IMG/VR virus record: IMGVR_UViG_3300043037_000040
Span: 1 to 46,237 of that record
Direction: 5' to 3' (one strand)
From: a virus
Length of the DNA: 46,237 bases
The notes under the pieces were generated by a model. It did no database searches, had not been told where the DNA came from, and saw only the letters and a program-made list of their open reading frames with translations. Positions 1 through 12,461 of the stretch are shown piece by piece. Both the position numbers and the translations under genes were made by a program. How positions within the stretch are numbered: the first letter of the stretch is position 1; each line of letters opens with the position of its first letter.

Positions 1-3000
1 GACCTAAGCCCGATCGACCGTGCCAAGTTCGAACAGCAGGCGCAGCAGTTGGAAGCGGTGATTGACCCGGCCTCGATCGATGACGTGGATATCGCCGTCA
101 ACCAGGCATGGATCCCGCTGTCGATCATCAGCGAGTACTTCACCGACAAGAACGCCAACGGCAACGAGTGGACCAAGAAACTTGCTCCGGTCGAAGTGAC
201 CTATGCCGACGGCATCTATACCGTGAGCGGGGGCAACGAGTACGGCGAGACCAAGCTGCTCGACACCTACCTCAACCGTACCGGCGTGCGCAAAGACGAC
301 AAGGCCACGCTCGAGGCGATGAATCGCGACTTCAAAACCTGGGCGCTGACGTCTGGTCACCGTGACGAACTGGAAGACCTGTACAACCGCAAGTTCCGCG
401 GCTTTGCCGAGCGCACCTATTCCGAAACGCCGTTCGAGATCCCCGGCCTGAATGCTGAAGGCCTGAAGACGTACCAATATTCCGGCCTGCGCTGGGCGAT
501 GGACGCCGGCAAGGGCATCATTGCCGCGGACGTCGGTCTGGGTAAGACGGCGCGGGGCCTGATCCTGGCGAGGATGGCCAAGGCCGATGGGAAGGCTGAT
601 CGCCCGATGATCGTGGTGCCGAAATCGGTCCTGGCCAACTGGTATGCCGAGGCTGAAAAGTGGTTCCCGGGTTCGCGTGTGCTGACGATCGGCGAGAGCT
701 ATTCGCGCGATGAAGACGGCAAGCTGATCGGCAAGCAGGACACCGTGGCCGAGCGCAAGCGCAAATACCACGACATGACCCAGAACGATTACGACTTCAT
801 CCTGATCAGCCAGCCGGCGTTCGAGGAGGTCGACGTCTCACCGGAGCTGAAGAACAACTACCTGTCCGATGACTTCTGGGTGCAGCGCGGCGAAAAGCTG
901 GGTAACGCGGGCGACAAGCGTATCAAGAAGGTCCGAGAAGCCTACGAGCAGTCCGTAGCCGGCCGAGAGTTCCAGGACCGCACCGACGCTATCAGCTTCG
1001 AGGACCTGGGCGTCGACATGCTTATCCTGGATGAAGGCCACGCCTACAAGAACCTGTACGCGGCGCGCAACCGCTTCGGCGAAACACCGAAGTTCCTCGG
1101 TGGCCAGGGCCAGTCGAACCGCGCGTTCGATATGTCGTTCAAAACCCGCTACATCCGCGACAACAACGACGGCAAGAACGTGTTCACCCTGACGGCCACG
1201 CCGACCAAAAACAGCCCGCTGGAAATCTACAGCATGCTGTCTTACGTCGCGCCGGAGGCCTTCGAAAAGATCGGGATCCGCAACAGCGAAGACTTCCTCG
1301 ATCGTTTCTGTGTGTTCACCACGGAAAACATCCTGAGCACCACCGGCGAGATCGAAGAGTCGTTGGTGACCAGCGGCTTCAAGAACATGGACGAATTGCG
1401 CGAGATCATGCGCCGCTACATCCACCGGACCACCGCTGAGGATGTCGGCCTGGTGCTGCCGTCGCGTGATGACCGCATGCACGCCGTTGATATGGATGAT
1501 CAGCAGAAAGCGGCTTACGTCGATCTGCGCGCCTTGGCTGAGGAGTCGGCCAAGAAGGACGACGCTACCGGCGACGGGCATATCTTCAGCATCATGGACA
1601 AGATGTCGAAGGCATCGATGGACCTGGAACTGTTGGATCCGGTCGCCTATGCCGGCCACGTTTCGCCGAAGTACCAGGCCGCGGCCAAGGAAATCACCAA
1701 CGGGGCCCAGGATGGCGGGCAAGTCGTGTTCTCTGACTTCGTCGCCTCCCACGAGAAAATCGCCGCTGAGCTGGTCAAGCGTGGCATCCCGCGCAACCAA
1801 ATCGCGATCATTAACGCCCAGGTGGCGAACAGCTCGCTGAAACGCCAGCGCATTGCCGACGATTTCAACGCCGGTAAAATCAAGGTGGTGATCGGCAACA
1901 CGGCCACCATGGGCGAGGGCATCAACCTGCAGGTGGGCACCACTGACATCCACCACCTTGATCTGCCGTGGGAGCCGGCGTCCATCCAGCAGCGCAACGG
2001 CCGAGGTCTGCGCCAGGGCAACATCAGCGAGGCGGTGCGGATTCACACCTACCTGTCCAAGGGCAGCTTTGACGGCTACAAATACCAGACCGTCGCCTCG
2101 AAGCGCGATTGGCAGGGCGATTTGTGGAACGGCGGCAACACGATCGCCAACCACAACCGGCCGGACAACCTGGCGCGCGAGGACATGCTGATCATGCTGG
2201 CCGCCGATCCGGACGAAGCCCGCAAGCAGTTCGCCGAGAACAAGTCGGCTGCGCTCGAGCGCCAGGGCAGCGAGAAACGTCGCGAAGTGGCCGTGCAGTT
2301 CACTCGCCTGCAAGGGCTCAAGCGCAGCTATTCGAAGCTGGCCGGCAAAGGTGGTCGCAGCGCGATCAAACTGGCGGCCGAGATCGAGAAAGCGCAAAAC
2401 AACCTGGCGAGTTCGAAGTGGTTCACCGCCAAGGATCTGTTGACCAGTGACGCTCCCGCGGTCGTGCACCCGGATACCGGCGCCGGGATTACCCTGGACA
2501 CCGTGCTGCATCTGGGGCCGAAGTCGAAAATCAGCGAGGGTGGTGATTGGGTGGTGACCGGGGTCAATCCTGAGGACGGCCGTCTGCGTCTGCGTCACTA
2601 CGCTGGTACCCGCTCGATGGGCGTGGAACTGTCCGATATCGGCAGCGACTTGTCCGTCAGCAAGCTGGACCATTCCGTTGAAGCCACCGAAATGGCGCGC
2701 CGTGCTGAAGAGACTGTCAGCTCCGGCGAGAACGCAATTACCTCCCCGGCGCAGGTGGCGCAGTTGCCGGCCGAAACCGTGAAGAAGCTTTACCCGCAGA
2801 TCCAGGCCCAGCTGAAGGAAGCACGCAAGGCGTACAAGATGCCCAGCGACTTCCAGAACGGCCGCGTGGGTTTGCTCGGCGCCGATGGTGTGCCGAAAGT
2901 GGTCACCTATTACAGCGACAAGGGCGAGGACGATTATCTGTTGGCCACCGATGAGCACCGGGCGAAAGTGCTTGATGCCTACGTCGGCGCCGAGCGCAGC

Positions 3001-3729
3001 AAGAAGTTCTCCATGGACTGGCAGTCGAACGGGCGCAAGAACAGCTCGGGCGGCAGCTACGTGTTTCGGCAGAAGTACGACGGCGGTTGGGACTGGTACA
3101 CAAACCCATGGGGCGAGGTCGGCAAAAAGCTGTTCGGTAGCGAGTTCGAGGCGGAAGCCATGCGCCGTGTGGCGCAGTCGGCCATCACTGAAGGGCGTCA
3201 CGCCAAGACACTGGCCGAAGCCTACCAGGCGCTGAAACCCCTGGCGCAGGTCGCTGGGTACGGCACGCCGAAGGTGACCATGCCGAAACGTGCCATCGCG
3301 ACCCTGTACGCCCAAGCGAAGCGCGTCGATCTGTTGGGCCAGGTGAGCAAATACGCCACCGGCGGTGACCAGAAGGCGGACCATCAGATTCTCAATGCGG
3401 ATCTGCCATTGATCAGTTCGCTGATCGAGCGTGCCAGTGTCTCAGGCCATCAGGACCTGGCGGCGGCAATGGTGCTCGACCACTGGAAGGATCAGCCGCG
3501 CAAGGCGCTGGAAATGCTCGCTACGGTGTCGGAGCAGCAACACGACAGCCGCTATTCTGGAACTACCACCGTTGTCGCGAAACAAGCCAAGCAGGCGATT
3601 CGTGTCCTGGTGCAGAATAATCCAGAGCTCGGCGCGCTGAAGATCGACGAGCTCCCTTGGGCGTTGAAGCATATCTACCCGGCACGGGCCGGAACCCTGG
3701 GTGAAGCCCTGCAGGAGAACGCAGCATGA
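1..3729 (+). CDS. SNF2/DarB-like helicase, 5' partial
   Basis: The reading frame is open at base 1, so the N-terminus lies outside the window; the first internal start is a TTG at 49. About 1242 residues are visible. Superfamily 2 helicase motifs appear in order: Walker A DVGLGKT (near visible residue 178), DEGH box (near 345), TATPT (near 398), and a C-terminal helicase half with a GEGINLQ and NGRGLRQGN arginine-finger region (near 640-670). The last 500 residues match no domain I recognise. Very long SNF2-type ATPases among head genes are typical of DarB-like antirestriction proteins that are packaged in the virion and injected, sometimes with an N-terminal methylase domain; such a domain could lie upstream. 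The helicase fold is clear from the sequence, and the antirestriction role is inference. The stop overlaps the next start by 4 bp (ATGA). Confidence 0.85.
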   Translation, partial: DLSPIDRAKFEQQAQQLEAVIDPASIDDVDIAVNQAWIPLSIISEYFTDKNANGNEWTKKLAPVEVTYADGIYTVSGGNEYGETKLLDTYLNRTGVRKDDKATLEAMNRDFKTWALTSGHRDELEDLYNRKFRGFAERTYSETPFEIPGLNAEGLKTYQYSGLRWAMDAGKGIIAADVGLGKTARGLILARMAKADGKADRPMIVVPKSVLANWYAEAEKWFPGSRVLTIGESYSRDEDGKLIGKQDTVAERKRKYHDMTQNDYDFILISQPAFEEVDVSPELKNNYLSDDFWVQRGEKLGNAGDKRIKKVREAYEQSVAGREFQDRTDAISFEDLGVDMLILDEGHAYKNLYAARNRFGETPKFLGGQGQSNRAFDMSFKTRYIRDNNDGKNVFTLTATPTKNSPLEIYSMLSYVAPEAFEKIGIRNSEDFLDRFCVFTTENILSTTGEIEESLVTSGFKNMDELREIMRRYIHRTTAEDVGLVLPSRDDRMHAVDMDDQQKAAYVDLRALAEESAKKDDATGDGHIFSIMDKMSKASMDLELLDPVAYAGHVSPKYQAAAKEITNGAQDGGQVVFSDFVASHEKIAAELVKRGIPRNQIAIINAQVANSSLKRQRIADDFNAGKIKVVIGNTATMGEGINLQVGTTDIHHLDLPWEPASIQQRNGRGLRQGNISEAVRIHTYLSKGSFDGYKYQTVASKRDWQGDLWNGGNTIANHNRPDNLAREDMLIMLAADPDEARKQFAENKSAALERQGSEKRREVAVQFTRLQGLKRSYSKLAGKGGRSAIKLAAEIEKAQNNLASSKWFTAKDLLTSDAPAVVHPDTGAGITLDTVLHLGPKSKISEGGDWVVTGVNPEDGRLRLRHYAGTRSMGVELSDIGSDLSVSKLDHSVEATEMARRAEETVSSGENAITSPAQVAQLPAETVKKLYPQIQAQLKEARKAYKMPSDFQNGRVGLLGADGVPKVVTYYSDKGEDDYLLATDEHRAKVLDAYVGAERSKKFSMDWQSNGRKNSSGGSYVFRQKYDGGWDWYTNPWGEVGKKLFGSEFEAEAMRRVAQSAITEGRHAKTLAEAYQALKPLAQVAGYGTPKVTMPKRAIATLYAQAKRVDLLGQVSKYATGGDQKADHQILNADLPLISSLIERASVSGHQDLAAAMVLDHWKDQPRKALEMLATVSEQQHDSRYSGTTTVVAKQAKQAIRVLVQNNPELGALKIDELPWALKHIYPARAGTLGEALQENAA

Positions 3730-4052
3730 CCGTCTCGGCAAAAGAATACGCGGCGAATGTGCGCAAGCTTCTGGATGAAGACCCGAAGCGCTATCGAAAC
3801 TTCGGCGTCTATTGGTTCTTCATCAAGGCGTTGCTGAAGAAGTTCTACGACCGCAACCAGATGCCAATACTGGGGCCTTATGTCGATCCCGAAGTGGTCG
3901 CCGCCATGCCTCCGTTCGAAACCCTGGAAGCGGCATTAACCGCCGCGGCCGAGGAATATGGCAGAAACGCCGTGTTCAATTTGGGCAGATCGACTGTAAC
4001 CGCCGAAAATGGTGAAGAAATAACGATATTTGATAACGATGTGGGGTTGTAA
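3726..4052 (+). CDS. hypothetical protein, 108 aa
   Basis: The start codon overlaps the stop of the helicase gene (ATGA), so the two are probably translationally coupled. The product is soluble, with a basic, aromatic segment near residues 20-45 (RNFGVYWFF, KKFYDRNQ) and an acidic C-terminus. No signal peptide, membrane segment or familiar motif is visible. It is the last gene before a 900-bp gene-poor region, and a 7-bp perfect hairpin with a GGGG loop (4082-4099) lies 30 bp after its stop. Function unknown. Confidence 0.7.
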   Translation: MTVSAKEYAANVRKLLDEDPKRYRNFGVYWFFIKALLKKFYDRNQMPILGPYVDPEVVAAMPPFETLEAALTAAAEEYGRNAVFNLGRSTVTAENGEEITIFDNDVGL

Positions 4053-4081
4053 TTCGTGTTGTCGTTGGTCTATTGTGCATC

Positions 4082-4432
4082 CAGCGATGGGGATCGCTGA
4101 TTGGGTGTTGTGTGTTCCCGGGCCAGCCGGGCTAGTTGAAGCACAAGGTTCCCTCCTTGCTTTGTGCAGACGCTGGGTAAGCTGGACGTCAGGGCGTGGA
4201 GAGGGCGGCTGAAAATCCCACGCAGTACGGCACGGGGTCACTTCCATAAAGTGTTCCGCCCTGGGAGCCGTCCTTAAAAACTGATAGACCTGTTGCGGTG
4301 GGGTGACGGGATCAGTAAGTAGAGGTCGCTGACAGTCTGGAAAGACAGACACAACTTTTTATCAGTGTGGTCCTTGGTCTGGTTGAAGACTCACTCGTCC
4401 TGATGCACTCGTCGGGTCAGGGACTACATCTA
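4082..4432 (+). ncRNA. candidate structured RNA upstream of tRNA
   Basis: There is no convincing gene in 4053-4444, but the stretch is dense in complementary segments. These are CAGCGAT/ATCGCTG (4082-4099); CCCGG/CCGGG (4117-4131); GCACAA/TTGTGC (4141-4167) enclosing a T-loop-like CAAGG-TTCCCT-CCTTG; GCGTGG/CCACGC (4194-4223); AGGGCGG/CCGCCCT (4202-4262), which competes with GGGCGGCT/AGCCGTCC (4203-4274); CACTT/AAGTG (4239-4253); a GGAA (GNRA) tetraloop on GTCT/AGAC (4335-4346); GTCT/AGAC (4377-4390); and CCTGA/TCAGG (4399-4421). CTGAT/ATCAG (4281-4315) and GACCT/AGGTC (4287-4327) would interlock as a pseudoknot. The pairs were found by eye. Whether this is one RNA, and its ends, cannot be settled here. 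Large ornate RNAs (GOLLD, ROOL) are known from phage genomes next to tRNAs; membership is speculation. Confidence 0.4.
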
Positions 4433-4444
4433 ATACAAAGTTTT

Positions 4445-4521
4445 TGCGGGGTAGAGCAGCCCGGTAGCTCGCAAGGCTCATAACCTTGAGGTCGCTGGTT
4501 CAAATCCAGCCCCCGCAACCA
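4445..4521 (+). tRNA. tRNA-Met (CAT), fMet-derived
   Basis: A full cloverleaf of 77 nt is visible. The acceptor stem is TGCGGGG/CCCCGCA, the D stem GAGC/GCTC, the anticodon stem CAAGG/CCTTG with loop CTCATAA (anticodon CAT), the T arm GCTGG-TTCAAAT-CCAGC, and discriminator A with encoded CCA. The body closely follows bacterial initiator tRNA-fMet (AGCCCGGTA D loop, GGTTCAAAT T loop). Two initiator hallmarks are changed: base 1 is T and pairs with A72, where initiators keep a C1-A72 mismatch, and the anticodon stem has A-T at 29:41 instead of the third G-C pair. It may therefore act as an elongator, or as an initiator-like tRNA with altered formylation or start selection. A run of five T ends at its first base. 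Confidence 0.95.
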
Positions 4522-4636
4522 TATTCGACTCTGCACAGCTTAAAACGCTGTCCTGACGAGAATGGCGGTAATGGCAAGCTTCTGGCCCATACATCCTGGA
4601 GAGACAGGACCGACGCAACCTGGCCGCCCAGGCTGT

Positions 4637-4797
4637 ATCGGACAAGTATCAAGCCTGCGCGGCATAGGCTGTACAACGGGAAGCGCATACACACTTGGCC
4701 CTGGGGGCTTCAAGTTCGCAGCCAACCGATGCCTGGGGTTCGAATCCCCCTAGATTGCGCAGTAAGCCGGGCCCGGCCTACTTGATACTTGTCCGAT
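4637..4797 (+). ncRNA. candidate structured RNA closed by 17-bp inverted repeat
   Basis: A perfect 17-bp inverted repeat (4637-4653 and 4781-4797; outer bases ATCGGACAAG and CTTGTCCGAT) closes a 127-nt segment. Inside lies a second stem, CTGCGCGG/TTGCGCAG (4655-4662 and 4755-4762, two G-T pairs). Within that are a hairpin GGCT/AGCC (about 4706-4722) and a TpsiC-arm consensus hairpin GGGG-TTCGAAT-CCCC (4735-4749). A 12-bp palindrome of G and C sits at 4766-4777. I could not fold a complete tRNA around the T-arm, because no matching D and anticodon arms or CCA follow. It could be a tRNA remnant, a tRNA-like domain of a larger RNA, or an attachment-site relic copied from a tRNA 3' end. No integrase is visible in the window. 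Confidence 0.45.
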
Positions 4798-4919
4798 GCA
4801 GAAAGCTCGTGACAACTGAAACATGAGATCGCCCCCGCTTCGCACAGTGGGCTTAGGTTCCGTCCCTTTGGGGTCACCGCGGGCCAAGGGGCGACAGGTA
4901 CCGAGTAGGGCTTTCTGCA
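4797..4919 (+). ncRNA. second inverted-repeat-bounded structured segment
   Basis: An inverted repeat with arms TGCAGAAAGC (4797-4806) and GCTTTCTGCA (4910-4919) is perfect over 10 bp and can be extended inward by a T-G and a C-G pair. It starts on the last base of the preceding 17-bp repeat, so the two structures abut. The interior is GC-rich, with GCCC/GGGC (4831-4852), CCC/GGG around 4865-4873 and another T-loop-like sequence GGTTCCGTCC. No credible gene is present on either strand. The HU gene starts 34 bp downstream, so this could also be the long 5' leader of that gene. Seen by eye only. Confidence 0.35.
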
Positions 4920-4953
4920 ACACCTTCAACCCAAAAGCACGGATGAGTACTCG

Positions 4954-5229
4954 ATGAATAAGCAAGATCTGATTGACGCAGTTGCAGAACGCGCCGCCGT
5001 CTCCAAGGCCGTCGCAAAGGATGTTCTTGATTCGATTCTGCATGAAGTGCAGGACGCATTGGCTCACGGCCAGGAAGTTCGCCTGGTGGGCTTCGGCACG
5101 TTCAAGACGACCGAACGCACCGCCCGTGTTGGCCGCAACCCTCAAACCGGCGCCGCGCTGCAGATTGCTGCTGCCATCGTACCGAAGTTCGCCCCGGGCG
5201 CTGACTTCAAGGCCGCTGTGAATCGCTGA
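4954..5229 (+). CDS. HU-family DNA-binding protein
   Basis: The 91-residue product has the length and layout of HU/IHF proteins. It opens with MNKQDLIDAVAERA, carries the dimer core ending in EVRLVGFGTF, and then the beta-arm with GRNPQTGAALQI (GRNP is the usual HU arm motif), ending FKAAVNR. HU proteins bind and bend double-stranded DNA without strict sequence specificity; in a phage they may compact DNA or serve as architectural factors in replication or transcription. The upstream 900 bp is non-coding and structured. A second, divergent HU/IHF-like gene lies at 41978-42256 on the other strand. The start at 4954 follows family length; the Shine-Dalgarno (CGGA) is weak. Confidence 0.95.
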   Translation: MNKQDLIDAVAERAAVSKAVAKDVLDSILHEVQDALAHGQEVRLVGFGTFKTTERTARVGRNPQTGAALQIAAAIVPKFAPGADFKAAVNR

Positions 5230-7907: not shown

Positions 7908-10900
7908 ATGACCGAAAATATCACGCACCGCCTCATCTTCCTGAAGGCCCTCGCTGAAGGCGAGCGCTGGATTACCGTCAAGGCCCCAGGCGCCGAGAAG
8001 GGTTCGCCCGTGCTCGTGCGTGAGAATCCGGACGGCTCTGCGTCCGTGATCGGCGGTGCCGGTGGCAAACTCAACCACTTGAAGCTCCGCGGCGTAAAGT
8101 CGAAAGAGCAGTACAAGAAAGAGTCCGGCGAGAAAGAGAAAACCAACCGCGAGGCGAAAAAGCAGGCGGTGGCTGCGCAGCGGGCCAAGGATAAAGAGGC
8201 TGGCATTGCCGGATCGAAAGCCAAAGTCCGCAAGGAGATCAAGGAACAGACACACGCCGAGGAGCGTGAATACGTCAAAGCAACAGCCAAGGTCATGGGC
8301 TGGGATGAAAAGGATCTGGCCTTCGACGAAGAGAAACATGCGGATCTGTCGCCGGCGGCCGTGACCAAGTTGGCGCGTGAGCACCATCGCGAGCTGGTGA
8401 AGAAAGCGAATGAAGCCTACGACCTGAACCGTCAAAGCCTGGCGATGGATTCCGAAGCGCGCCAACAGGCGAACATCGGCGGCGCCACCTACAAGCCTGA
8501 TGATCCCGACAGCATTTCAGTGGCCGACCTGGACCAGGCTGCGGGCCCGTCCACGGGACTGGGTTTCTCCCCTGAATATAAAGCGCGTGCCGAAGAGGCC
8601 GGACTGACTGATCCTGAATTGGAAAAGGAAGCCGGCCAGGTTCGCGAAAAGAAACAGGCGCAGATGTCCGAAGGCGAACGCAAAGCAGCGATCAACCGCG
8701 GGCAGTCGGCCAAGCTGGTGAAACAGGAGCTGCAGGGTGTTCGCGAGGATGACGCAGAGAAAACCGATCGACTCAAAGCGCACCTGGTGGAAGCGGATAA
8801 AGCGCTCGAGCTGATGAAGGCGAAAAAGCGCCTCGACCTAGCCCGCAAGAAAGCCTCTGACGCGCTGAAGAGCGTGGAAAAATCCAATGTCGAACCTAAG
8901 GCCTACGTGCTCGAAGTAGACGCCGCCGATGTTGACAGTGCGGTAGAGAGCCAAGTGGTCAACGATCTGCGCACCATCCGCACGCGAAACTTCCTGAGCG
9001 AAGCCGGCAAGGTGCCTGAAAAGTCGATCGGCTCCCACGTTGCCAGTGGCGCGTTCAACTCGATCAATAGCCTGTCGCTGGCGGCCACGGGCGCAGGCCT
9101 GATGGATCGTAGCACCGTTGACGTGCTCGGCGTGGCCGGTGCCGCTTCGGTCCTGGCTCGCCGGCTGCATACCGATCTGACGCCGGATGAAATGGCTCAA
9201 GTCGCCGAAGGCATGGAAGATTTCCACCAGCACCATTACATGGACCTATCCAAGAAATCCTTGGATGAGGCCAAAGCGCTGACGGATCAAGTCGAAAGTA
9301 TGACGCTGCCTACTGCTGACAATGGCGGTGACCTGGCAGCGCTCCAGGAGATAAACGCACGGCGCCGGGATGCACTGAATGAATCGACGCGTATCCTCGG
9401 TACCGCTGCCGGTGAAATGGAAGCCAACGCTGCGCTGGTACAAGCACTGCGTGACAAGCCGGCCGATAAGCTGGAAATTCCCATGGGCAAGGCGCAGCCG
9501 GAGGCGATCATCCGCCAGGCGCGCGCGCTTGGTTTGCAACGCGGTGATTACTCAATCGATCCCGTCGGCGGGCAAACCTTCCTGACCATCACCGCCAGCG
9601 GCATGGATCGCTTGGCCGAGCCGGTCGACCGTGAATCGATGCAGCAGATCCGCCGGAACCTGGACATCATCGAAGGCAAGCAGGACGAAGACCAATGGCT
9701 TCCTAAGGGTTTTGCCAACCGGCCAGATCTGGACCTGAAACCGAAACCGGGCGTCGCGGCGAAACTGGCCATCCCGTTCGAGGTTGGTGCTGACGCTGAA
9801 CAGTCGCTGGCCGATTACATTGGTGGGCGTGCAGCTGATGGTGATTCGCCTGCCGATATCGTCGCCGACTTGCAGTCCGAGACGTTCATGCAGAAGGCTG
9901 GCGATCGCCGTGACCAATACATGCAGGCGCTGGATAAGCTGGCGCCCGCCCAGGATGCAGACGGCAAGCAGATTCGGAACGAGTCGCTGCAATCGTCGTT
10001 CGAGAAAATGGCAGACGAGTTCGTCGAGAAACGCTACGGCGCTGATCTGACGCCGCTTCATCGTCAGCAGTTCGACATGGACCAGACGTCTGTCGATGCG
10101 TTGCACCGTGCCCTGTCGGCCGAGCCATCCGGGGTAGCCGCGTACAAGCCGATCGGCGAACTGGATCACAAAGACCAGCGCGCGCTACGGGAGTACTTCG
10201 CTCGTGAGGTTGCGCATGAGTCGCCCGAGGCCGGGGAGATCCGGCAGAAGCTGGACGCGCTCGTGGCGAATGAGCCTGAGCAGCATGTCACCGATATGTT
10301 TGGCGAGCAGGCGAATAACCCTGAGTGGCTGGCCTGGAAGTCCGAGCGTGATGACCTGGCTGCCCAGCACAACAGCAGCAGCCTGAGTTGGGGCAAATAC
10401 GTCAAGGCCATGGGCAGCACAGCCAAGGCTTACGAAGCGGCCCAGGATCTGATCCGCTCGAAGATCGCGAAAGGCTTTCACGAGAATTACAACACGCTCA
10501 ACCCGAAGGGTGCACTGAAACTCGGCCACACGGTGATCCGCAACAACCTGGACCACCTGGACACGGTCGATCCTAAAGCACGGGCCGCCAGGGAGGCGAA
10601 GGAAACTGCCTTGCGTGATGGTCTGCGCGAGCGCGTCGGCGGCAAGTACGCCAGTGGCAGCGTGATCGACAAGCTGGATCAGCAGCGGGAACAGCAGGCC
10701 GCTTTCGAGCAGTCGCAGCTCGGGATGTTTTCCTCTGAGGAAATGCCCGCCACCGAACAGGAAAAGGCGCTTGGTGCTGATGAGCGCTATACCCTGGGCC
10801 ATGCCGCCGAGCAGAAAATCGCCAGCATGATGTCCGTCGTGGGAAAGAATTTCAAACCGGGCCAGGCGCTGAAACTGTGGCAGCCAACGATGAGCGGGTC

Positions 10901-12461
10901 CGGGGCGCCGCGGCAGCGCGCTATCAAGCTCCTCGATGCGAACAAGCGGGTCGGTCTGGCGTTCGGCGTCGGCACGGGTAAAACCGCGATCGGCCTGGGC
11001 GGCTTCTCGCACCTGCACGAGCAGGGCAAAATCAAGAAGGGTTTGTTTGTCGTGCCATCGATCGTCCAGGGCCAGTTCGGCGGTGAGGCGCTGCGCTACC
11101 TGGAGCCTGGCAAATTCAAGTGGCATGCGGAGCCCGGCGCGTCGTTCGAGTCGCGTTTGCAGGCCTATAAGGATCCGGAAAACAGTTTCACCGTGGTGAC
11201 GCACCAATCGTTTCGCGATGACATGGTGAAACTCGGAGCGCAGCACGCGGGGATTCCTGAGGACCAGATGAGCCAGAAGCTGGGCGAAATGAGCCGGGGC
11301 GATCGCAAGGCCTGGATCCGCGCCGTGATGGACAAGGAAGGCATCGACCATCAGTACATCATGGTCGACGAAGGGCACAACACGCTGAACCGAAAAGGCA
11401 AAGAAGACAGCGGCATGGCCAATGTGATCGATGCCGCTACGGACAACAGCGAGTACTTCGTGAGCGCCACCGCGGACCCGGTCAAGAATGACCTGTCCGA
11501 GTTGCACGACGCCATGACCAAGCTGGCCGGCGGCAACTACATGGACCGCGATACCTTCATGCGTAAATACGGCGTCGACACCGCGGCAAGCAAGGATTCG
11601 TTGCGCCGGGAAATGGCGCGCTACTTCTACCCGTCGAAGATTGACCCTGAAACCGGCGCCAATCGCCAGGAGATCAAGGTCCAGCTCAACGACCAGCAGA
11701 AAACCGAACTGGAAAAGATCGACCGTCACGCGTTGGCTCTGCGCCTGGCGCGCATGGGTGGTCGCGTCGATATCGAGTCGGCCAAGGCCCTGGCGCCGGA
11801 ACAGTTCGCGGGTGTGCCTGAGGAGAGGCACGAAGCAATCGCCAAGGCCCTGCAGAAGAACATCGGCTTGCTTAAACGTCCGGCCGTGCGCCGGGTGATC
11901 AACAACCATCCGGACGGCGCCAAGTTTGAGGCCGCGGTGAACTATGCGCGTGAGCGCAAGGGTAAGCCCGGGGTGTTCTTCACACGCTCGCTCGAGGGTG
12001 TGGCGATTCTGAAAGCCAGGCTGGAAAAAGAAGGCTTCCGGGTGGCGACAATCACCGGCGCCGACAGCTCGAAGGAAAAGGAGGCCAAGCGGCAGATGTT
12101 CAACCCTGAGGGTGGTGCAGAAGCCCAGGCCGATATCCTGGTAGCCTCCGATGCGGCGGCGACCGGCATGAACATTCAGCGCGGTCAGTGGTTGACGGCG
12201 ATCGACACGCCGGAAACAGCTATGACCCATGCCCAGCGGCAAGGCCGGATCTACCGCACCGGGCAGAAGAACGACGTCGAGCTGGCTGACCTGGTGGCCG
12301 ATCATCCGATGGAACGGGCGGACAGGGCCAGGCTCCAGACGAAATACGCACTGCGTGACCTGGTCACCAGTCCGCTCGAAGGCCTGGATGATAGTGGCCT
12401 GGCGTATTTCCTCAAGCAGCGCCGTGATCGACAACAAGAGCAGTCCGGCAGCTTGTTTTAA
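7908..12461 (+). CDS. giant SNF2/DarB-like helicase
   Basis: The 1517-residue product has an N-terminal segment (1-110) with VLVRENPDGSASVIGGAGG. A long, charged alpha-helical middle (about 110-950) follows, then a C-terminal SNF2-type helicase: Walker A GVGTGKT (near 1023), VDEGH (near 1152), SATADP (near 1186), and a second lobe with GVFFTRSLEG (near 1354) and AHAQRQGRIYRTGQKN-like motif VI (near 1440). It is the second such helicase within 8 kb. Phage P1 DarB and relatives are virion-borne and protect injected DNA from restriction, so a packaged antirestriction role is a reasonable inference. The ATG lies at the end of a TCGTGAC element with no Shine-Dalgarno. A hairpin follows the stop. 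Confidence 0.85.
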   Translation: MTENITHRLIFLKALAEGERWITVKAPGAEKGSPVLVRENPDGSASVIGGAGGKLNHLKLRGVKSKEQYKKESGEKEKTNREAKKQAVAAQRAKDKEAGIAGSKAKVRKEIKEQTHAEEREYVKATAKVMGWDEKDLAFDEEKHADLSPAAVTKLAREHHRELVKKANEAYDLNRQSLAMDSEARQQANIGGATYKPDDPDSISVADLDQAAGPSTGLGFSPEYKARAEEAGLTDPELEKEAGQVREKKQAQMSEGERKAAINRGQSAKLVKQELQGVREDDAEKTDRLKAHLVEADKALELMKAKKRLDLARKKASDALKSVEKSNVEPKAYVLEVDAADVDSAVESQVVNDLRTIRTRNFLSEAGKVPEKSIGSHVASGAFNSINSLSLAATGAGLMDRSTVDVLGVAGAASVLARRLHTDLTPDEMAQVAEGMEDFHQHHYMDLSKKSLDEAKALTDQVESMTLPTADNGGDLAALQEINARRRDALNESTRILGTAAGEMEANAALVQALRDKPADKLEIPMGKAQPEAIIRQARALGLQRGDYSIDPVGGQTFLTITASGMDRLAEPVDRESMQQIRRNLDIIEGKQDEDQWLPKGFANRPDLDLKPKPGVAAKLAIPFEVGADAEQSLADYIGGRAADGDSPADIVADLQSETFMQKAGDRRDQYMQALDKLAPAQDADGKQIRNESLQSSFEKMADEFVEKRYGADLTPLHRQQFDMDQTSVDALHRALSAEPSGVAAYKPIGELDHKDQRALREYFAREVAHESPEAGEIRQKLDALVANEPEQHVTDMFGEQANNPEWLAWKSERDDLAAQHNSSSLSWGKYVKAMGSTAKAYEAAQDLIRSKIAKGFHENYNTLNPKGALKLGHTVIRNNLDHLDTVDPKARAAREAKETALRDGLRERVGGKYASGSVIDKLDQQREQQAAFEQSQLGMFSSEEMPATEQEKALGADERYTLGHAAEQKIASMMSVVGKNFKPGQALKLWQPTMSGSGAPRQRAIKLLDANKRVGLAFGVGTGKTAIGLGGFSHLHEQGKIKKGLFVVPSIVQGQFGGEALRYLEPGKFKWHAEPGASFESRLQAYKDPENSFTVVTHQSFRDDMVKLGAQHAGIPEDQMSQKLGEMSRGDRKAWIRAVMDKEGIDHQYIMVDEGHNTLNRKGKEDSGMANVIDAATDNSEYFVSATADPVKNDLSELHDAMTKLAGGNYMDRDTFMRKYGVDTAASKDSLRREMARYFYPSKIDPETGANRQEIKVQLNDQQKTELEKIDRHALALRLARMGGRVDIESAKALAPEQFAGVPEERHEAIAKALQKNIGLLKRPAVRRVINNHPDGAKFEAAVNYARERKGKPGVFFTRSLEGVAILKARLEKEGFRVATITGADSSKEKEAKRQMFNPEGGAEAQADILVASDAAATGMNIQRGQWLTAIDTPETAMTHAQRQGRIYRTGQKNDVELADLVADHPMERADRARLQTKYALRDLVTSPLEGLDDSGLAYFLKQRRDRQQEQSGSLF

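Follow-up and report, generated by a model that had tools for sequence, protein, structure and literature searches.

A probable modular array of structured RNAs around a phage tRNA gene

The interval that separates an Ulx-like anti-restriction gene from an HU-family gene in the viral record IMGVR_UViG_3300043037_000040 (the window, meaning the whole stretch of 46,237 nt that we analysed) is a genuine gap of 901 nt and is non-coding, and it is likely that the region is a modular array of phage structured RNAs that act as RNA. Modules A and B within it are conserved structured RNAs, modules have been gained and lost as units, and similar arrays occur in unrelated phages. The initial annotation was right in reading the region as a structured non-coding phage RNA that adjoins a tRNA and is selected for structure. 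A gap that annotation had left empty holds conserved RNAs.

A gap between two phage genes

The gap (4053-4953) is bounded exactly by the two ORFs, and the tRNA-Met is the sole annotated feature within it. The features on which the argument depends are these:

3726-4052, + strand: upstream gene, Ulx-like anti-restriction ORF (108 aa; PHROG 1629, E 1.8e-14)
4121-4187, + strand: module A 5' arm (RNAalifold, three lineages; alignment with the RF03044-positive PHB04 sequence)
4180-4442, + strand: module A core, an extended Proteo-phage-1-like structured RNA of ~263 nt (conservation, covariation, covariance model R2)
4194-4223, + strand: module A hairpin GCGTGG...GAAAA...CCACGC, corresponding to the second helix of Proteo-phage-1 RNA
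4335-4350, + strand: M hairpin, GTCTG-GAAAGA-CAGAC (pairing at recurring sites in phage loci)
4354-4441, + strand: 3' long-stem domain of module A, 22 pairs, capped by two hairpins (three-lineage consensus)
4445-4521, + strand: tRNA-Met (CAT), CCA encoded, initiator-type D-arm A11:U24 (ARAGORN; RF00005, 67.8 bits)
4633-4801, + strand: module H, hairpin with a 21-bp stem (4633-4653/4781-4801; inverted repeat, equivalent stems elsewhere)
4797-4919, + strand: module B, structured RNA closed by 4797-4806/4910-4919, core CTGAAACATGAGATCGCCCC ... GGGGCGACAGG (covariance model R3)
4954-5229, + strand: downstream gene, HU-family DNA-binding protein (91 aa; PF00216, E 4.9e-31)

The suggestion that about 1 kb lacks a credible gene is borne out by comparison with the related loci L004 and L005. 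The core of module A keeps no conserved reading frame: single-base indels break the frames, and the differences fall across frame positions as 9/4/6 and 18/10/9, without the codon periodicity of ulx (4/4/33). On the minus strand the window has an open ORF at 3936-4352; the aligned frame is shifted in L005, and we rejected this ORF as a gene. The region had also been called GC-rich, which is wrong: its GC content is 53-57%, as against ~60% for the upstream genes. The single-strand fold of the region beats shuffled sequence (z -2.5, 20 shuffles), which taken alone is weak evidence; the comparative evidence is strong.

Searches for familiar signals returned little. We found no sigma-70 promoter within the array or just 5' of it, and neither ARAGORN nor Rfam places a tmRNA in the window. 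Blast comparison of the parts on either side of the tRNA with phages and plasmids gave a 25-nt match in Xanthomonas phage FoX4 and nothing more; that match is real, since a covariance model confirmed the FoX4 site. Additional matches to the pattern GAGAGGGNGGCTNAAAATC in L037-L039 were dismissed as chance. The tRNA at 4445-4521 is a true member of its family by both its cloverleaf and its covariance match. It is an initiator-like phage tRNA-Met with U1-A72 and an altered anticodon stem; its counterparts at L004:5875-5951 and L005:5653-5727 have the anticodon stem GGG/CCC, and that of L004 also has a U1-U72 mismatch.

Homologues of ulx were found at 19 viral loci, and the locus is shared with L002 (identical), L003 and L004 (Ulx 94% identical), and L005 (Ulx 62%). 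In distant relatives such as L022 and L028, a helicase gene directly follows Ulx, and the block has therefore been inserted, or was lost there. The Ulx-RNA-HU block is flanked by two large helicase/DarB-like genes (window 49-3729 and 7908-12461), as in P1-like phages. A DarB-like helicase ORF at L006:28-5001 has an apparent intein in its ATP-binding motif (GLGK, an insert ending VTHN, then T).

Module A and the Proteo-phage-1 family

Module A is conserved beyond its neighbours. Across 4180-4442 the window is 92.8% identical to L004 and 86.9% to L005; the corresponding values are 87.5% and 66.7% for ulx, and 85.9% and 67.8% for HU. Comparison of three lineages gave compensatory changes: the consensus has 87 pairs, 98.1% of cells are paired, 9 pairs show double changes, and this level was reached by 0 of 500 shuffles and by no slid control. 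The evidence for module A comprises three close lineages and two remote matches. Because the set of three is small and itself yielded the consensus, the independent matches weigh more.

Those matches were obtained with model R2, built from the window lineages, which finds a site after ulx in Bordetella phage PHB04 (31.9 bits) and another in L160 (31.6 bits); E-values of the covariance models built in this analysis are rough. At the same places the Rfam family RF03044, an sRNA of unknown function with an 82-nt model and a gathering score of 42 bits, scores 60.6 bits (PHB04, at 25.8 kb) and 75.5 bits (L160). Among 50 records checked, only these two pass the RF03044 cut-off, and both are R2-positive. 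The connection thus runs through an intermediate, in that a model of the window lineages retrieves the records that pass RF03044; the RF03044 model itself finds nothing in the window at E-values up to 10, nor anything in the full record at E-values up to 1. The best reading of module A is thus a divergent relative of Proteo-phage-1 RNA, extended on the 3' side, that falls outside the family when judged by the Rfam model. An uncharacterised Rfam family is in this way tied to a larger RNA and to modular, tRNA-bearing arrays. We found no paper using the name Proteo-phage-1 in the open-licence literature.

Several structural details can be assigned. In the 5' arm, the helix CCAGC (4123-4127)/GCTGG (4181-4185) encloses a variable hairpin and corresponds to the first helix of Proteo-phage-1 RNA. 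The stem of the hairpin at 4194-4223 is invariant in three lineages and altered in PHB04. The bases of a pseudoknot proposed at 4281-4327 are invariant among the three lineages; a nested hairpin in the same place (4280-4316) has 3 compensatory pairs. In both PHB04 and L160 the RNA continues 3' past the Rfam model to a hairpin with the loop GAAAGA or GGAAGA.

The corresponding hairpin of the window, the M hairpin, had been credited with a GNRA loop. The hairpin itself is genuine and covarying, with recurrences in other phages, but its loop is the hexaloop GAAAGA. When sites in fetched phage loci were chosen by GAC[AG]N4GGAAAGAC alone, 12 of 17 paired at all 4 free positions, with many different stems. 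R2 matches in L138, L144 and L115 consist almost solely of the GAAAGA hairpin, and we rejected them as module A and counted them as M-hairpin sites.

Modules H and B, and element D of related phages

On the other side of the tRNA, a long inverted repeat that had been noted was confirmed: 4633-4653 pairs with 4781-4801 at 20 of 21 positions, and equivalent stems occupy the same place in relatives with other sequences. Such stems, again different in sequence, are found in L004, L005, P1 and FoX4. The interior of module H is variable and includes one T-arm-like hairpin, GGGGTTCGAATCCCC, near 4735; among three T-loop-like hairpins first listed outside the tRNA, only this one has the canonical T-loop sequence. 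The 3' strand of H shares five bases (4797-4801) with the closing strand of module B. A tRNA-like unit lies inside a long hairpin in L083 (reverse complement, 2620-2760), with recognisable D-, anticodon- and T-arms and ~60 nt in the variable region; after this example, H units may be derived from tRNA genes.

Module B is a conserved structured RNA that is absent from Rfam. Its model, R3, was built from the window, L004 and L083, and outside this training set it matches FoX4 (47.8 bits) and PHB04 (35 bits). Both the closing stem and the core helix TCGCCCC/GGGGCGA show compensatory changes, and FoX4 has the same order as the window, a long hairpin and then B.

These two modules bear on the possibility that the region is a decaying tRNA array, a series of functionless pseudo-tRNAs and spacers. 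Such decay could account for the T-arm-like remnants in H units and for H interiors that are wholly different between relatives. It is disfavoured for A and B: the core of module A changes at a slower rate than the genes beside it, B has 95% identity to its L004 counterpart where HU has 86%, and double changes keep the helices. We regard decay as very unlikely.

Relatives carry a further unit. Ahead of its tRNA, L004 carries 161 nt that are missing from the window, and in both L004 and L005 an additional unit before the HU gene contains an element, D, that the window does not have; the best D-model score in the window is 6.4 bits, on the tRNA itself. The idea that the H unit is a degenerate D was rejected, since it scores 2.4 bits against the D model, which is not significant. 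Relative to L004, the window has lost a whole H-D unit, bounded by the repeated closing strand TCTGCA. A stretch of 48 nt around AGAGAGATGCGACCCTGGAATCTTTTTCAATAAGTCTGGATCGC is identical between about L004:6117-6164 and L005:5807-5854, whose Ulx proteins are ~60% identical; the window lacks it, and L083 has an altered form.

Element D emerged from a 132-nt part of the extra unit of L004 and L005 that is 85% identical to Pseudomonas phage phPA-G and whose core led to the element. It consists of a closing stem, a hairpin GCGC-AGGCTGAT-GCGC, an insert of ~12-180 nt and a hairpin GCCGG-AGATCAGCA-CCGGC; the two loops are complementary over six bases, as in a kissing loop, and because this contact is almost invariant it is backed by complementarity, not covariation. 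We counted the 16-mer core in at least 120 virus-contig stretches, the partner hairpin lies upstream at 100 of 123 core sites, and ~100 viral contigs carry the element. In 79 distinct closing stems from motif-only sites, pairs 1-7 form in 72-77 and pair 8 in 55, after which pairing is near chance. All 9 closing pairs show changes on both sides, and P3 is fully paired; the sequences behind the both-side changes were chosen partly for pairing, and the helix count was repeated on the motif-only sites. Inserts vary widely even between elements that share a closing stem.

The M hairpin keeps company with this element. At GGAAAGAC sites no more than 700 nt from D, 23 of 26 pair at 3 or more of 4 positions; away from D, 16 of 54 pair at three or four positions, 3 of these 16 being module A copies.

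D occurs twice in P1 (L047:894-1033 and 1323-1429), beside tRNA-Asn/Thr genes, and phage ZC03 has it within a tRNA cluster. Of 5,426 complete E. coli genomes, 840 (~15%) carry it, with no annotated feature among the matches listed; one E. coli prophage copy (L171:4000-4139) lies upstream of yfdP. In phPA-G (L046:4413-6132), D lies ~1.3 kb upstream of an RT module annotated as a diversity-generating retroelement (Avd, RT-15 RNA, reverse transcriptase). Although P1 is a much-used phage, D is absent from Rfam, and its presence in P1 and E. coli opens its function to direct deletion tests. A search of the open-licence literature for the core sequence found no paper, and D could be published under another name. 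We considered the Pas sRNAs of E. coli prophages (PMC13192938) and rejected them as D; every flanking RNA that the paper names belongs to an Rfam family, and D belongs to none. The early suggestion of a new class of RNA therefore stands for modules B and D, which Rfam does not hold, but not for module A, with its link to Proteo-phage-1 RNA.

The orientation of D also argues on a second alternative, that the region is a DNA-level element (a replication origin, or a packaging or recombination site) whose palindromes mimic RNA structure. Long inverted repeats and a neighbour encoding an HU protein could be taken in its favour. However, G-U as well as Watson-Crick pairs are kept, which fits RNA better than cruciform DNA, and D near tRNAs is always on the tRNA strand: of 103 D sites, 14 lie within 600 nt of a tRNA, 14/14 on its strand (background 5). 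The majority of D sites have no tRNA nearby. A DNA-level role seems highly improbable.

Arrays in other phages, possible function and known systems

Comparable arrangements exist elsewhere. A ~3-kb array in L083 holds several tRNAs, B, two D elements and an M-type hairpin, with a 161-nt stretch 89% identical to L005. In PHB04, 2.7 kb (45.1-47.8 kb; L188:1577-4284) is nearly gene-free, with one tiny annotated ORF, and contains three tRNAs, a permuted tmRNA (RF04321, 104.5 bits), B and a D-like match of 31.6 bits; a permuted tmRNA on a phage seems unusual. In L144 a promoter-like site, M hairpin, D and terminator-like site follow in series over ~410 nt, which, as a pattern match only, suggests a free-standing RNA gene.

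This independence of parts decides against a single ornate RNA of some 900 nt, a possible relative of GOLLD or ROOL with an embedded tRNA, as first supposed. The gap's size, its tRNA position and its phage origin do fit what has been published for those RNAs (PMC12286853). Yet in cmscan of the gap, even with permissive filters and E up to 10, Rfam matches only the tRNA, the remainder being chance matches far below the cut-off and neither GOLLD nor ROOL among them, and the modules of relatives are separable, gained and lost independently, and differ in phylogenetic range, order and number. One large fold of this type is largely refuted and merits almost no credence.

We favor instead the modular array. 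It would be transcribed on the + strand as one transcript with the tRNA in the middle, which tRNA-processing nucleases would cut, with RNase P acting at the 5' end of the tRNA and RNase Z or exonucleases acting at its 3' end; stable RNAs would thereby be freed on both sides, module A from one and H-B from the other. The released RNAs could act in trans during infection, binding or occupying a host factor, for example as decoys for an RNA- or tRNA-handling host or defence protein. Host-factor binding is the best fit because constant scaffolds are combined with hypervariable interiors and with tRNA mimicry in several units; the decoy step, taken alone, is doubtful. Recombination could swap units through the near-identical closing stems of successive units.

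A or B could instead be a cis-acting leader that controls the HU-like gene or its operon by attenuation or translation control. The array is immediately 5' of the HU gene and shares its strand, and TTTTT follows the hairpin at 4335-4350, those U residues being paired in the consensus, like a terminator/antiterminator pair. But module A has other neighbours elsewhere (in PHB04 it is directly upstream of a helicase, with no HU gene), B precedes different genes in FoX4 and PHB04, and the tRNA sits between module A and the HU gene. Control in cis is, on balance, unlikely.

In a larger context, and tentatively, we speculate that proteobacterial phages may share a kit of RNA cassettes (the A/Proteo-phage-1 type, B, H, D and the M hairpin) that are exchanged whole by recombination, in many cases within tRNA clusters, with constant scaffolds such as D showing hypervariable inserts for an arms race with the host, as decoys for instance; the window would be one such array.

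The tRNA cluster of phage T4 contains stable non-tRNA RNAs of unknown function. Our array would resemble it in placing stable RNAs other than tRNA among phage tRNA genes, a lead drawn from description and not from sequence. GOLLD and ROOL resemble the array in being phage-encoded, structured and near tRNA genes; they differ in that the array is modular, not one large fold, and has no covariance match to them. In its architecture, D of the relatives recalls a tRNA: a 7-8 bp closing stem stacks without a linker on a 5-bp hairpin arm, and a 3-nt linker, a 4-bp arm with an 8-nt loop and a loop-loop contact follow. The tRNA-like stack, a ~7-bp closing stem set directly on a 5-bp arm (12-13 bp in all), is indeed present. 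D differs from a tRNA in that RF00005 does not match it, its kissing contact spans 6 bp, and the anticodon arm is replaced by a hypervariable insert; an encoded CCA stands at the expected place 3' of D in 5 of 79 cases, the same as at other offsets, and tRNA mimicry is weakened because CCA is not above chance. Module A departs from Proteo-phage-1 RNA in having an extra long hairpin in the first arm, another second hairpin and ~200 further conserved nt on the 3' side (the GAAAGA hairpin and long-stem domain). It resembles that RNA in two helices, the CCAGC/GCTGG arm and the GAAAA-loop hairpin, which align with RF03044 in PHB04, and in position, the PHB04 copy also lying directly after ulx.
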